A stretch of DNA of 64,000 nt from Clostridiales bacterium (GTDB lineage Bacteria; Bacillota; Sulfobacillia; RBS10-35), in assembly GCA_018729555.1 (NCBI GenBank), contig JAHHQG010000024.1:1-64000 (forward strand), written 5' to 3'. The position numbers and the translations under genes are program-made. Below are positions 39,062-48,022 of the stretch, one piece after another (positions within the stretch are counted from its first letter, which is position 1; every line of letters starts with the position of its first letter). The notes below the pieces were generated by a model that searched no databases, had not been told where the DNA came from, and saw only the letters and a program-made list of their open reading frames with translations.

Positions 39062-39973
39062 GTGAAGGTCCGTCCGGGAGGTACTGTCCGTCCTTACAAC
39101 TTTCGGGCGCCCGACAAGTTTTCCAAGGATCAGCTGAGGACTATCCTCATGCTCCACGAGAGCTTTGCCCGGGGGGCGACCACCATGTTCTCCGCCCACC
39201 TCAGGTCCTGGGTGGAGGTGCGGACCGTCACCGCCCTGCAGATGACCTACCGCCAGTTCAGCCAGGAGCTGGGGGAGGCCAGCATCCTGGCGGTGATCTC
39301 GGTGCCGCCCCTTCCCCAGCGCATGGGCTGGAGCCTCGATCCCCGGCTGGCCCTCTACATGCTGGATCGGCTGTTGGGGGGACCCGGCACGGTGCCGGCG
39401 GAGGGGCGGCCCCTCTCGGACATCGAGGAGGTGGTGGTGCGGAGGATCCTCCAGAACATGATGGCGGCCTGGCGGGATGCCTGGAAGCCGGTCCTTTCGG
39501 TGACGCCCAAGGTGGAAGCCTTGGAGACCAATCCCCTTTTCGCCCAGCTGGCGGCCCCCGACGACATCGTCCTGGTGGTGGAGCACCAAGTGCAGGTGGA
39601 GGCGTTTACGGGGGCCCTCAAAAGCTGCTTTCCCTTCCGCCTCTTGGAGCCCATCCTCCCGCGCTTGGCAGCCCGGGGTGGGTTTTGGGCGGAGCCGGAG
39701 GACCACCGGGAGACCAGCGAAGAGCGGATGGCCCGCCACCTCTTGCAGGTGGAGGTGCCCCTCACGGTGGAGGTGGGGCACGTGCGGATGACGGTGGAAA
39801 AGCTCCTCTCCCTGAAGAAAGGGGACCTCCTCCCCCTGGACCGCGGCCCGCAAGAAGAGCTTTCCCTCTGCGTCGGCGGGATCCCCACCTTTTCGGTGAC
39901 GGTGGGACAAGCTTCCCGGCGCCTGGCGGTTCTGGTGCGGGGGGTGGCGAAAGGAGGTGAAGGCCGTGGGTGA
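39062..39973 (+). CDS. fliM: flagellar motor switch protein FliM, lacking the CheY-binding N-terminus
   Basis: A protein of 303 residues. It enters directly with [20 protein letters not shown], which in usual FliM begins near residue 40; the N-terminal SQxEIDALL peptide that binds CheY-P is missing, and no upstream start recovers it. The middle domain (about 30-215) and the C-terminal SpoA domain (about 225-295, with [20 protein letters not shown]) are present. GTG 39062 has GGAGGGAGAGG behind it. No cheY or fliY is nearby. Confidence 0.93.
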
Positions 39974-43313: not shown

Positions 43314-45326
43314 ATGCGGGCGGGCATCAGCGATCTTCTGGTAGGAGCCGGCCTCATCGTCATCGTCCTCATGATGGTGGTGCCCCTGCCGGCCAGCTGG
43401 CTCAGCCTTCTCATCGCCCTCAACATCGGCTTTTCCCTGGCCCTCCTCCTCTCCACCACCTACCTCACCGATCCCTTGGAGCTCTCCATCTTCCCCAGCC
43501 TCCTTTTGATCATCACCCTCTTTCGCCTCGCTCTGAACGTCTCCGCCACCCGCCTCATCCTTCTCCACGGCGATGCCGGGGTGGTGGTGCAAAAGTTCGG
43601 GGAAGTGGTGGTGGGGGGAAACCCCCTGGTGGGCTTCATCATGTTTTTGATCTTGGCCCTCATCCAGTTCCTGGTCATCACCCGGGGGGCCGAGCGGGTG
43701 GCGGAGGTGGCGGCCCGCTTCACCCTGGATGCCATGCCGGGAAAGCAGATGGCCATCGATGCCGATCTCAGCGCCGGCATCATCGACGAGGCGGAAGCCC
43801 GGGAGAGGCGGCGGAAGATCCAGCAGGAAGCCGATTTCTACGGAGCCATGGACGGCGCCAGCAAGTTCGTCAAAGGGGATGCCATCGCGGCCCTGGTGAT
43901 CATCGCCATCAACATCGTGGGCGGGCTCATCGTGGGCCTCTGGCAAAAGGGGATGGACATCATGGGGGCCCTCCAGCACTACACCCTCCTTACGGTGGGG
44001 GAAGGGCTTTCGGCCCAGATCCCCGCCCTTTTGGTTTCCACCTCGGCGGGCATCATGGTGACCCGGGCGGCGGCCAAGGATCAGCTGGGGCAGGAGATCC
44101 GCCTGCAGCTCTTGGGGCGCTCCCGGCCCCTCATGGTGGCCGGAGGCGCCCTCCTTCTCATGGGCCTGGTGCCGGGGCTTCCCACCTGGCCCTTCCTCCT
44201 CCTGGGGGCGGCCTTCCTCCTGGTGGCGGGGCAGGTCCTGCGGGCGGAAAAGGGCAGGGAGGCCCAAAAGCCAATGGAAGCCATCCAGCCCAAGGAGCCC
44301 ACATCGCCGGAAGAGGCAGCTTCCCTGGTGACGGTCCAGCCCATGGAGATCGAGCTGGGCTACGGCCTTTTGCCCCTGGCGGAAGGGCCTTCCGGGGGAG
44401 AGCTCATGGCCCGCATCGGCTCCATCCGAAGGCATGTGGCCCGGGAGCTGGGCCTTATCCTTCCGCTGGTGCGGGTGCGGGACAACATGGAGCTTTTGCC
44501 CCAGGAGTACCGGGTGCGGGTGCGGGGTGTGGAGGTGGGCCGGGGGGAGATTTACCTGGACCGCTTCCTGGCCATCGATCCGGGGGGTCTGCAGGATGAG
44601 TTCCCCGGCATTCCCACGAGGGAGCCTGCCTTTGGCCTTCCGGCCATGTGGATCCGCAAAGAGGATCGGGAGGGGGCGGAGGCCGCCGGATACACGGTGG
44701 TGGATCCCGCCTCCGTCATGGCCACCCACCTGATGGAGCTGGTGCGCCGCCATGCCGCCGATCTTCTGACCCGCCAGGAGGTGAAGGCCATGCTGGATGT
44801 CCTTCGGGAGGAGAGCCCGGCCGTGGTGGACGACATCGTGCCGGGGACCGTCTCCATGACCCTCCTCCACCGGGTGCTGCAAAACCTCCTTCGGGAGCAG
44901 GTGCCTATCCGGGATCTGGTGACCATCCTCGAGACCCTGGCCCAGGTGGCGGGGCAAAACCCCGACCCCGAGGCGGCGACGGAAGCGGTGCGGGGGGCCC
45001 TGGCCCGGCAGATCACGGCCCGCCTTCCCGTGGAAGGGGGCCAGCTTTCGGTGGTGGCCTTGGCGCCCCGGGCGGAGGAGGAGCTGGCCCAAGCCCTTCG
45101 CGGGGGCGATGTGCCGGCCGAGCGGCTCCAGGAGATCCGCAAGAAGACCCACGAGGCCATCATGGCCATGCGGGCGAGGGGCCAGAGGCCGGTGGTCCTC
45201 TGCTCCCCCGGGGCCCGCCTCTCTCTACGGCGCCTCATCGAGCGACAGCACGGGGATGTGCCGGTGGTGGCCTACCACGAGCTGGCGGGGGATATCCAGG
45301 TGAAGGCCGTGGAGGTGGTGGATTAG
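43314..45326 (+). CDS. flhA: flagellar export-gate protein FlhA
   Basis: A protein of 670 residues: about eight membrane helices in the first ~320 residues with the FHIPEP-type loop (AARFTLDAMPGKQMAIDADL; ADFYGAMDGASKFVKGDAIA), and a large cytosolic domain binding export substrates and chaperones. RRLIERQHGDVPVVAYHEL near the end is typical. The stop directly abuts the flhF ATG. Confidence 0.96.
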   Translation: MRAGISDLLVGAGLIVIVLMMVVPLPASWLSLLIALNIGFSLALLLSTTYLTDPLELSIFPSLLLIITLFRLALNVSATRLILLHGDAGVVVQKFGEVVVGGNPLVGFIMFLILALIQFLVITRGAERVAEVAARFTLDAMPGKQMAIDADLSAGIIDEAEARERRRKIQQEADFYGAMDGASKFVKGDAIAALVIIAINIVGGLIVGLWQKGMDIMGALQHYTLLTVGEGLSAQIPALLVSTSAGIMVTRAAAKDQLGQEIRLQLLGRSRPLMVAGGALLLMGLVPGLPTWPFLLLGAAFLLVAGQVLRAEKGREAQKPMEAIQPKEPTSPEEAASLVTVQPMEIELGYGLLPLAEGPSGGELMARIGSIRRHVARELGLILPLVRVRDNMELLPQEYRVRVRGVEVGRGEIYLDRFLAIDPGGLQDEFPGIPTREPAFGLPAMWIRKEDREGAEAAGYTVVDPASVMATHLMELVRRHAADLLTRQEVKAMLDVLREESPAVVDDIVPGTVSMTLLHRVLQNLLREQVPIRDLVTILETLAQVAGQNPDPEAATEAVRGALARQITARLPVEGGQLSVVALAPRAEEELAQALRGGDVPAERLQEIRKKTHEAIMAMRARGQRPVVLCSPGARLSLRRLIERQHGDVPVVAYHELAGDIQVKAVEVVD

Positions 45327-46100
45327 ATGATCATCCGGAGGTTTGAAGCCCGGGATATGGACGAGGCGGTGAAGAAGATCCGGGAGGCCATCGGGCCCGA
45401 TGCCCTCCTCCTTTCGGCCCGCCCCCGGAAAAAGGGGTTTCCCTGGCGACGGGAAGAGGTCCTGGAGGTGACGGCGGCGGTGCCCCCCGGGCCCCCGAAG
45501 GAAGCTCAGGAGCTGGAGGCCCTGCGGCGGGAGATCCTTTCCGCCCCTCCCCAGCCGGCCCGCCCGTGGTGGGTGCTGGTGGGGCCCAGCGGCGGGGGGA
45601 AGACCACCTTGGCGGGGTCCCTCACCCTGGAGGCCCTCCAGGAGGGTAAGCACCCCCTCTTGGTGGCGGCAGGGGTCTACCGGGCGGCGGCCCTGGCCCA
45701 GGTGAGGGCCCTCGCCCTGGCGACGGGGGCTTCCTTTCGGGAAGCGGGGAGCCCCCGGACCCTGGAAACCCTCCTCCAGCATCCGGGGGGAGGGGTGGTG
45801 GATATCCCCGGGTTCAATATCCGCCAGCCCAAAGAGACGGAATCCTTCCGGTCGTGGCTTCCCGTCCTCAGGGGCTGCCGGCTGGTCTTGGTGTGGCCGG
45901 CGCCCTACCAGGGGCCCGATGCCCCCTTCACCCTGGCGGCCTACCGGCAGCTGGGGATCCGGGAAGCCCTTCTCACCAAAGTGGATGAGACCACCCATCC
46001 CCAGGGGGCGGAAGAGCTCCTTTCGGAGCAGGGGTTCACCCTTTTGGGGTGGCGGGGAAGCCCCCATATGGGGGAGCCGGTGAACTGGGAGAGGAGGTGA
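45327..46100 (+). CDS. flhF: FlhF-like SRP-type GTPase, short and motif-altered
   Basis: A protein of 257 residues against about 360-390 in usual FlhF. The opening IRRFEARDMDEAVKKIREAI and DALLLSARP are the FlhF B-domain start. G1 is intact (GPSGGGKTT, 86-94) and G4 is TKVD (217-220), but the DTYR motif reads AGVYR (Asp lost, near 114-119) and DTAGR reads DIPGF (159-163). FlhF normally places flagella at the pole or sets number. GTP binding may survive while hydrolysis is doubtful. It starts at the flhA stop. Confidence 0.82.
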   Translation: MIIRRFEARDMDEAVKKIREAIGPDALLLSARPRKKGFPWRREEVLEVTAAVPPGPPKEAQELEALRREILSAPPQPARPWWVLVGPSGGGKTTLAGSLTLEALQEGKHPLLVAAGVYRAAALAQVRALALATGASFREAGSPRTLETLLQHPGGGVVDIPGFNIRQPKETESFRSWLPVLRGCRLVLVWPAPYQGPDAPFTLAAYRQLGIREALLTKVDETTHPQGAEELLSEQGFTLLGWRGSPHMGEPVNWERR

Positions 46101-46105
46101 GGACC

Positions 46106-47221
46106 TTGGCGGTCATCCGCATCCAGGGCCGGCGGCCGGGAGCCGGCGTCCGCACCCTGGGCCACCACCTGGCGGCCGCCCTTCGGCGCCTGGGAAAAGA
46201 CGCCCTCTTTGAGGACCTCCGCGGCGGCCCCCGCGTGGATCGACCCCTTTCCGGCGGGAGGGAGGCTTCGGTCCGGGTGGTGGCCTCAAAGGAGCCCCTT
46301 CCCGAGGAAAGGGCGGTTATCTGGGTGCTCCTCCCCGGGGATCCTCTCCCGGAGGACGGCCAGAGCTGGCTCCTTTTCAACCGCCAGGAGAAAAAGGGGG
46401 AGGGAGCGGGGGAGAGGGTCTTGGGTTTTATCCCCGAAGAGCCTTGTTTTTCCCGAGCCTTTGAGGAGGGAAAGGACCTCTTTACCCTCTGCCCCGAAGG
46501 GGAAGGGGCGAAGGCCCTCCTCCAGGCGGCAGCCCGGCTCCAGCGGGCCCTTCGCGAAGGGGAGGCCCCTCCCTCTCGACGGCGGCAGGACGAAGAAGCC
46601 GGGGAGCCGGCCTCCTTTTCGCAGGCGGCCCCGAAGGTCAACCAGAAGGTGGTCCTCCGGGACGAGGAGGGCGAATCCTACGGGTCCTTCGTGGAAGAGG
46701 TGGAAGGGTCTTGGGTGACGGTGGCAGTCCCCATGCGGAGGATGGTGGCCCTCCAAGGGAAGCCCGGAAGCGCCTTTCTTTTGGAGTACGGCGACGGCAC
46801 GGCCGTCTTCCAGTTCCCCGCCGCCTTGGTGGAAGTGGGGCCCCATGGGTGGCGCCTTCAGGTGGAGGAAAAGGGCCTCCGGCGGCAGCGGCGCCGGTAC
46901 CTTCGGTGGCCGGTGGTCCTTCCCGTGAAGGTCTGGTGGGAGGGCAAGGCCCTCGAAGGCCGCACCGCCGACATCAGCGGGGGAGGTCTCCTGGCGGTCC
47001 TTCCCCAGTGGATCCCCGTCGGGAAGAAGGTGACGGTCCTCCTCCAGCTTCCCGAGCGGGAGATCCGGGGGGAGGCCCGGGTGGTGCGGGAGCTCCCCAG
47101 GCTTCCCCAGGGCTATCGCTTTGGCCTGGAGTGGCAGAACCTCCGCATGGCCGACGAAGATGCCATCGTCCGCTTCATCTTTCGTCAGCAGCAAAAGGCC
47201 CGCCGCCAGGGCTTGCTGTGA
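46106..47221 (+). CDS. degenerate FlhG/MinD-like domain fused to a YcgR-PilZ module
   Basis: A protein of 371 residues. Residues 1-150 look like a shrunken FlhG: AVIRIQGRRPGAGVRTLGHH where MinD-type proteins have the GKGGVGKT P-loop (Lys lost), and VLGFIPEEPCFSRAFEEGKD like FlhG's GxIPxDpxVrxAv segment. After a linker, residues 176-256 resemble the YcgR N-domain and 260-365 a PilZ domain with the c-di-GMP residues RRRYLR (262-267) and DISGGG (289-294). It takes the flhG place after flhF. TTG 46106 has GAGGAGGT 7 nt upstream; GTG 46097 is an alternative. Confidence 0.85.
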   Translation: MAVIRIQGRRPGAGVRTLGHHLAAALRRLGKDALFEDLRGGPRVDRPLSGGREASVRVVASKEPLPEERAVIWVLLPGDPLPEDGQSWLLFNRQEKKGEGAGERVLGFIPEEPCFSRAFEEGKDLFTLCPEGEGAKALLQAAARLQRALREGEAPPSRRRQDEEAGEPASFSQAAPKVNQKVVLRDEEGESYGSFVEEVEGSWVTVAVPMRRMVALQGKPGSAFLLEYGDGTAVFQFPAALVEVGPHGWRLQVEEKGLRRQRRRYLRWPVVLPVKVWWEGKALEGRTADISGGGLLAVLPQWIPVGKKVTVLLQLPEREIRGEARVVRELPRLPQGYRFGLEWQNLRMADEDAIVRFIFRQQQKARRQGLL

Positions 47222-47236
47222 GAAAGGAGGGAGATC

Positions 47237-48022
47237 ATGGCTCGGCCGGAACCCACCGGCGATGACCTCTGGGAGGCCTACAAGGGATGGCAGGACGAGG
47301 AAGCCTACGAAAAGCTGGTGGAGCGGTACCTTCCCCTGGTGAAGTACGTGGCGGGAAGGCTGGCCATGGGCCTGCCGGCCCATGTGGACATGGAGGATCT
47401 CTACAGCTACGGGGTTTTTGGCCTCCTGGACGCGTTGAGGAAATACGATCCTTCGCGGGGCGTCAAGTTTGAGACCTACGCTTTTACCCGTATCCGGGGC
47501 GCCATCCTGGACGGCCTGCGAGAGCTGGATTGGGTGCCCAGCTCCCTCCGGCAAAAGGCCCGCCGCCTGGAGCAGGCCTACGGGGCTTTGGAGGCCCGGC
47601 TGGGACGGCCTGCGGAAGACCGGGAGGTGGCGGAGGCCCTGGGCATGGACGAAGAGGCGCTGCAGCAGCTTCTGGTGGATATCAGCCGGGTGACGGTGGC
47701 CTCGCTGGACGATGCCGCGTGGAATCGCGATGAAGAGGGAGAGGGAGACCTGCCCCTCCGGGACATGGTGGCCGACGACAGGGCGGCGGATCCTTTTGAA
47801 GAAGCTTACCTTCGGGAGCGCCAGGCCCTTTTGGCCCAGGCCATCGATCGGCTGCCGGAAAAGGAGCGGCTGGTCATCGCCCTCTACTACTACGAGGGAT
47901 TGACGGTCACGGAGATCGCCCGGGTGATGAAGCTCTCGGTGTCCCGCGTCAGCCAGCTTCACTCCAAGGCGGTCCTCCGGCTCCGGGGCCGTCTTTCCCG
48001 CCAGAGGGAGGCCTTGCGATGA
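47237..48022 (+). CDS. sigD: flagellar RNA polymerase sigma factor SigD/FliA
   Basis: A protein of 261 residues, the sigma-28 factor for late flagellar genes. Region 2 is LEKLVERYLPLVKYVAG-like near residue 25 with MEDLYSYGVFGLLDALRKYD and FETYAFTRIRGAILDGLREL; region 4 is LPEKERLVIALYYYEGLT then EIARVMKLSVSRVSQLHSKA. The ATG follows AAAGGAGGG. In Bacillus the che genes precede sigD; here they are absent. No flgM is in the window. Confidence 0.95.
   Translation: MARPEPTGDDLWEAYKGWQDEEAYEKLVERYLPLVKYVAGRLAMGLPAHVDMEDLYSYGVFGLLDALRKYDPSRGVKFETYAFTRIRGAILDGLRELDWVPSSLRQKARRLEQAYGALEARLGRPAEDREVAEALGMDEEALQQLLVDISRVTVASLDDAAWNRDEEGEGDLPLRDMVADDRAADPFEEAYLRERQALLAQAIDRLPEKERLVIALYYYEGLTVTEIARVMKLSVSRVSQLHSKAVLRLRGRLSRQREALR

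Follow-up and report, generated by a model that had tools for sequence, protein, structure and literature searches.

The FlhF-FlhG pair sets the location and number of flagella, and receptors of the YcgR/MotI kind let cyclic di-GMP (c-di-GMP) slow or stop the motor; c-di-GMP also binds the transcription factor FleQ. FlhF-FlhG and YcgR/MotI have been treated as separate layers of control, although their genes adjoin in much of the Bacillota sampled here. YcgR/MotI (DgrA) proteins consist of a YcgR-N barrel and a PilZ domain with RxxxR and DxSxxG motifs and are encoded with flagellar genes, and interactions of YcgR with MotA and with FliG have been reported (PMC10140304). FlhG (FleN, YlxH) is a MinD-like ATPase encoded after flhF; it is reported to interact with FliM/N via the FliM N-terminus, and its DQAxxLR helix activates FlhF (PMC12826062).

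Partial likenesses to the protein described here occur in other systems. FleQ-FleN functionally connects c-di-GMP with a homologue of FlhG (PMC10723142), although no receptor is fused to FleN itself. In cellulose secretion, BcsE-BcsQ likewise re-uses a catalytically dead domain for c-di-GMP sensing with the MinD-like protein BcsQ, but that domain is a degenerate GGDEF and not a PilZ domain, BcsQ is a protein of its own, and the system is not flagellar (PMC7439463). YcgR homologues of the Leptospirales likewise have a lineage-specific extra domain, theirs being an inserted GAF-like domain unrelated to FlhG (PMC11800159). A preliminary description of the locus reported here stated that no described protein is known to join FlhG and YcgR. 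In the open-access literature searched we found no MinD/FlhG-PilZ fusion and no described YcgR/MotI protein with an FlhG-derived domain, and a 2025 review of FlhF/FlhG contains no occurrence of PilZ or of a fusion.

Here we describe a gene in which an FlhG remnant is fused to a complete YcgR/MotI-type receptor. The genomes compared are our own assembly (G000) and a congener (G001), both of family f1, two genomes of the sister family f2 (G006 and G002), and one of family f4 (G004).

A fusion gene in the flhG slot

The window (the whole stretch of DNA analyzed, 64,000 nt) carries a long flagellar operon, 3′ of which lie genes that read by translation as rpsB, tsf, and pyrH. As the preliminary description had it, the fusion gene is at the flhG position, between flhF and fliA, and the order flhA-flhF-[gene]-fliA is common to both species of the genus (Table 1). 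Its start codon is a TTG located 8 nt downstream of AGGAGG, a strong Shine-Dalgarno sequence, and its stop codon is at 47219-47221; in the congener a gene of the same length, 371 aa, occupies the corresponding position and has an identical Shine-Dalgarno sequence and TTG start. The open reading frame is real and its bounds are correct. An internal start yielding the receptor alone was considered at the GTG codons of residues 204 and 214, where there is a Shine-Dalgarno-like stretch, but these positions lie inside the YcgR-N barrel, which makes such a start unlikely.

Table 1. Positions in the window of the fusion gene, its parts, and neighboring flagellar genes
Feature	Position	Strand	Basis and remarks
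fliM	39062..39973	+	Starts 11 residues ahead of RPYNFR, directly after fliL; N-terminal EIDALL-type motif absent
flhA	43314..45326	+	Basis of the locus species tree
flhF	45327..46100	+	257 aa; TIGR03499; P-loop present, G3 DTAGR and closing GQxVPED absent
Shine-Dalgarno AGGAGG of fusion gene	46092..46097	+	Sequence; overlaps flhF end
Fusion gene	46106..47221	+	371 aa; FlhG remnant and YcgR/MotI-type c-di-GMP receptor; 70% identity in congener G001
Shrunken FlhG/MinD-like domain, residues 1-150	46106..46555	+	HMM against shuffles, NCBIfam minD_arch, hhalign, AF2 and Foldseek, dN/dS
P-loop remnant GRRPGAGVRT, residues 8-17	46127..46156	+	Alignment with 24 FlhG proteins; counterpart of GKGGVGKSN
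Last strand and C-terminal helices of MinD fold (LGFIPEEP...AARLQRAL), residues 104-148	46415..46549	+	HMM, minD_arch, hhalign
Low-conservation linker, residues 149-172	46550..46621	+	At the place of the FlhG membrane-targeting tail; 29% identity
YcgR-N (PilZN-type) beta barrel, residues 173-260	46622..46885	+	Pfam PilZNR below cut-off; AF2, MotI/YcgR match
PilZ domain, residues 261-360	46886..47185	+	Pfam E=1.6e-16
RRRYLR (RxxxR motif), residues 262-267	46889..46906	+	Sequence; kept in congener
DISGGG (DxSxxG motif), residues 289-294	46970..46987	+	Sequence; kept in congener and both sister-family fusions
fliA (sigma-28-type)	47237..48022	+	Position, translation; synteny in congener; downstream of fusion gene

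A complete receptor of the YcgR/MotI kind

By sequence motifs and structural match, residues 173-371 make up a complete c-di-GMP receptor of the YcgR/MotI type, in agreement with the earlier proposal of a full YcgR-type module; the PilZ domain is recognized by Pfam, and both c-di-GMP motifs are present (Table 1). The Pfam PilZNR match to residues 173-260 is below the cut-off (E=0.0048, 17.4 vs 23 bits), and AlphaFold2 (AF2) models this barrel with a pLDDT of about 95. Foldseek searches with the whole AF2 model gave B. subtilis MotI/DgrA as the top match (5vx6, E=1.5e-14), followed by VCA0042 and E. coli YcgR, with the match to MotI/YcgR spanning about 210 residues. By the features tested, the fusion protein belongs to the YcgR/MotI kind, from which it differs by the addition of a 150-residue FlhG-derived N-terminal domain. 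It is the single PilZ protein found in a domain search of its own genome, which also has two GGDEF matches and one MotA-family protein; no MotA was found in the congener's draft genome.

A remnant of FlhG without an ATPase site

Pfam finds almost nothing in residues 1-150 (BcsQ, 0.28), and NCBIfam minD_arch matches residues 104-148 at 0.0071, and at 5e-5 in the congener. We built a profile HMM from 33 FlhG proteins, with which our protein reaches 12.9 bits and the congener's 21.8 bits, whereas none of 1000 shuffles exceeds 3.1 bits. The match is split in two, in colinear order: residues 3-37 align with the P-loop strand-helix-strand, and residues 104-148 with the last strand and the C-terminal helices. 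By hhalign, residues 104-145 match at E=3.9e-6. AF2 and Foldseek agree with the proposal that this region folds like MinD/FlhG, the model of residues 1-173 (pLDDT 71.8, pTM 0.71) having MinD/FlhG structures as its best PDB matches (1hyq and 4rz2; TM 0.53-0.57), but the model was built with FlhG rows in the alignment, such that its MinD-like fold is not independent of the sequence comparison.

Identity is low, and the single-domain scores of our protein alone are weak (-0.5 and 10.9 bits), as might be expected if the N-terminal 150 residues were unrelated to FlhG and resembled it by chance. However, the two pieces occur in the correct order in both species, the gene is at the flhG position, and in the sister family this place is taken by an intact FlhG, likewise fused; with the HMM scores against shuffles, hhalign, and NCBIfam, these led us to reject a chance resemblance, which we regard as very improbable. 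Residues 1-150 are, judged from the sequence, MinD/FlhG-like.

The preliminary description called the region a dead MinD domain, of which the MinD-like character stands but the whole domain does not: about 150 of about 260 residues are present, and alignment with 24 FlhG proteins shows that about 100 core residues are deleted between beta2 and the late strands. In the same alignment the P-loop GKGGVGKSN corresponds to RRPGAGVRT (GRQGAGVHT in the congener). The P-loop lysine, already reported missing, is replaced by valine and the next serine by arginine in our protein or histidine in the congener, and neither RRPGAGVR nor GRQGAGVH conforms to the deviant Walker A pattern KGGxGK[ST]. The switch II motif DxxAG (DTGAG) has been deleted from both f1 species and is present in f2. 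Given K to V, S to R, and the deletion of switch II, the ATPase site of the remnant is predicted to be dead. The DQAxxLR enhancer helix is also absent, as the protein opens at beta1 (MAVIRIQG), and inspection found no C-terminal amphipathic membrane-targeting sequence; in place of the GLFFDRL/GVRGFFG-like tails of FlhG there is a polar linker, REGEAPPSRRRQDEEAGEP, modelled with pLDDT<50 around residues 153-163.

The protein thus resembles FlhG/FleN/YlxH in its slot after flhF and in retaining parts of that fold and sequence family, but it is about 100 residues shorter, is joined to a PilZ receptor, and lacks four defining features (Walker A, switch II, enhancer helix, and membrane tail). With homology to the FlhG/FleN ATPase and the flhF-adjacent position retained and these four features missing, we classify it as a descendant, and not a functional member, of FlhG. 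No separate complete FlhG was seen among the ten best ParA/MinD-type loci elsewhere in the genome, which by sequence and length look like MinD, ParA, Mrp, CpaE-like, ArsA-like, and SRP proteins. We note two very similar CpaE-like proteins on different contigs (G000:C1:8797-9579 and G000:C21:32711-33493), each with a CpaF-like ATPase gene after it.

Selection on both halves

The conserved pieces of the FlhG remnant are 70-76% identical between our protein and the congener's, matching the YcgR-N barrel, and residues 41-65 and the linker are 28-29% identical. The dN/dS values are 0.19 for residues 1-148, 0.17 for YcgR-N, 0.12 for PilZ, and 0.21 for flhF, with 0.66 for linker residues 149-172 and 0.53 for residues 41-65; they come from a single species pair with dS of about 1.1-1.4, near saturation, and are supportive rather than strong evidence that the shrunken FlhG domain (dN/dS about 0.19) is under purifying selection and not drifting. 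These values bear on whether the FlhG half is decaying, a passenger on its way out of a protein in which only the receptor matters, as could be suggested by the loss of some 100 residues with all catalytic motifs and by the poor conservation of residues 41-65 and the linker. We think this quite improbable, because the conserved pieces have a dN/dS of about 0.2 and identity as high as that of the barrel, and because the length of 371 aa and the Shine-Dalgarno-TTG start are kept in both species.

Relatives and origin of the fusion

The two genes are not separate in all relatives, and the architecture, which the preliminary description proposed to look for in related genomes, recurs: four genomes in two families have the fusion. 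G006 codes for a 549-aa protein in which a complete FlhG ATPase is followed in frame by a YcgR module, and G002 has the same intact fusion, with the protein incomplete at a contig end. Domain order and locus are those of the f1 fusion, but the FlhG part has its full length and retains both the GKGGVGKSN P-loop and the DTGAG switch II intact; the receptor part is 37-39% identical to that of our protein, with 78% identity between the f2 members. Every genome here seems to be a draft, and at least two were assembled from metagenomes, which invites the question of whether an assembly or frameshift artefact joined two genes. The fusions occur in four genomes, share 70% identity in one family and 78% in the other, and keep an open frame across the junction, and we give an artefact practically no weight.

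In families f3 and f5, which belong to the same order, FlhG has an ordinary length and no YcgR module, and no further fusion was found in 154 genomes of the class or among the best 30 loci of a 398-genome phylum sample; in the sampled genomes the fusion is limited to a small uncultured Bacillota group. Apparent frames of 500-630 aa in several other genomes proved, where the DNA was read, to be neighboring flhG and ycgR genes joined only by reading across a stop. The two are adjacent separate genes in 14 of the 24 class loci read as DNA, as they are in 21 of the top 30 loci for the phylum, and because they are usually separate neighbors, fusion of neighboring flhG and ycgR would be the simplest origin. 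An FlhA tree places f1, f2, and f4 in one clade (support 100/100). In f4 the contig ends inside flhG (G004:C132 end, L049), before a fusion could show, and no PilZ was found in the G004 draft.

Changes in FlhF and FliM

In the FlhF proteins of f1, f2, and f4 the DTAGR G3 motif is replaced by VDIPGFN, VDFAAAN, and VDFGPAN, and GQxVPED is lost, among 23 FlhF proteins compared, of which the others recovered keep the DTxGR form. The flhF gene in the window, with an intact P-loop and neither motif, possibly codes for a GTPase-deficient FlhF. The DQAxxLR helix is missing from FlhG of f2 and f4 as well, and several other FlhG proteins show it. The N-terminal EIDALL-type motif of FliM is missing in both species of the genus and kept in f2 (LSSEELDVLL) and f4 (VTSEERAALL). 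Loss of the FliM motif coincides with shrinkage of FlhG, and since both fall in one lineage they count as one putative event.

No MCP or CheW domains were found in f2, and the FliM motif retained there may therefore serve FlhG rather than CheY. Among order relatives, MCP was not found in the five searched, and CheW was found in 0 of 12. Our own assembly has a chemotaxis cluster (G000:C26:79.3-86.0 kb, L143) with MCP, CheW, and CheA and, by sequence, CheD, CheB, and CheR; the assembly is reported to be 7% contaminated and its FliM lacks the usual CheY-docking motif, and these points bear on the wiring or origin of the cluster.

The partner changes also bear on whether the FlhG half still sets flagellar number or position, as a pseudo-ATPase switched by c-di-GMP via PilZ and not by ATP. 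Such a protein would be expected in the flhG slot with its remnant under purifying selection, and the intact sister-family fusion suggests that the functions were linked physically before the ATPase was lost. However, the parts for ATP-dependent dimerization, the membrane tail, and the FlhF-activating helix are missing, FlhF is without its G3 motif, and FliM is without its N-terminal motif, so that the known FlhG outputs lack both interaction ends; we consider a persisting FlhG-type role unlikely. The preliminary description had suggested that flagellar placement or motor braking is tied to c-di-GMP, which is plausible, and because the FlhG ATPase site and enhancer helix, the FlhF G3 motif, and the FliM N-terminal stretch are all missing, the evidence favors braking over FlhG-type control of number or placement in this genus.

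Discussion

We propose, with moderate confidence, that the protein most likely brakes the motor in response to c-di-GMP and that its FlhG remnant, no longer an ATPase, has been re-purposed as an interaction domain. Its predicted history begins in the ancestor of f1, f2, and f4, where the FlhF-FlhG GTPase switch would have loosened as FlhF lost DTAGR and FlhG lost the DQAxxLR helix. The adjacent flhG and ycgR genes would then have become one reading frame, and in f1 the FlhG part would have lost ATP binding, its core, and the membrane tail, with FliM losing its N-terminal FlhG/CheY-docking motif. In the cell, rising c-di-GMP would be bound by the PilZ part, and the YcgR part would then engage the stator or rotor (MotA, or FliG/FliM), such that the motor is slowed or unclutched. 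The FlhG remnant may act as a nucleotide-independent docking or stabilizing domain that holds the brake at the flagellar base; this docking role is suggested solely by conservation of the remnant, which could simply stabilize the protein.

We speculate further, and tentatively, that c-di-GMP has a direct action on an FlhG module: the intact f2 fusion would couple flagellar number or assembly to braking in one protein, and f1 would have discarded the ATPase but retained its body at the flagellar base, as an adaptor gated by c-di-GMP, while the FlhF G3 motif and the FliM motif eroded in step.

The genomes compared appear to form a stepwise natural series, from separate genes through a fused and apparently active ATPase (f2) to a fused, apparently dead remnant (f1), and the series shows which features go together: the G3 motif of FlhF, the enhancer helix and ATP site of FlhG, and the N-terminal motif of FliM. 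The fusion makes it testable whether FlhG and YcgR act on one flagellar-base assembly, and f1 offers a natural experiment in how a switch controlling the flagellum can be taken apart and put to new use.
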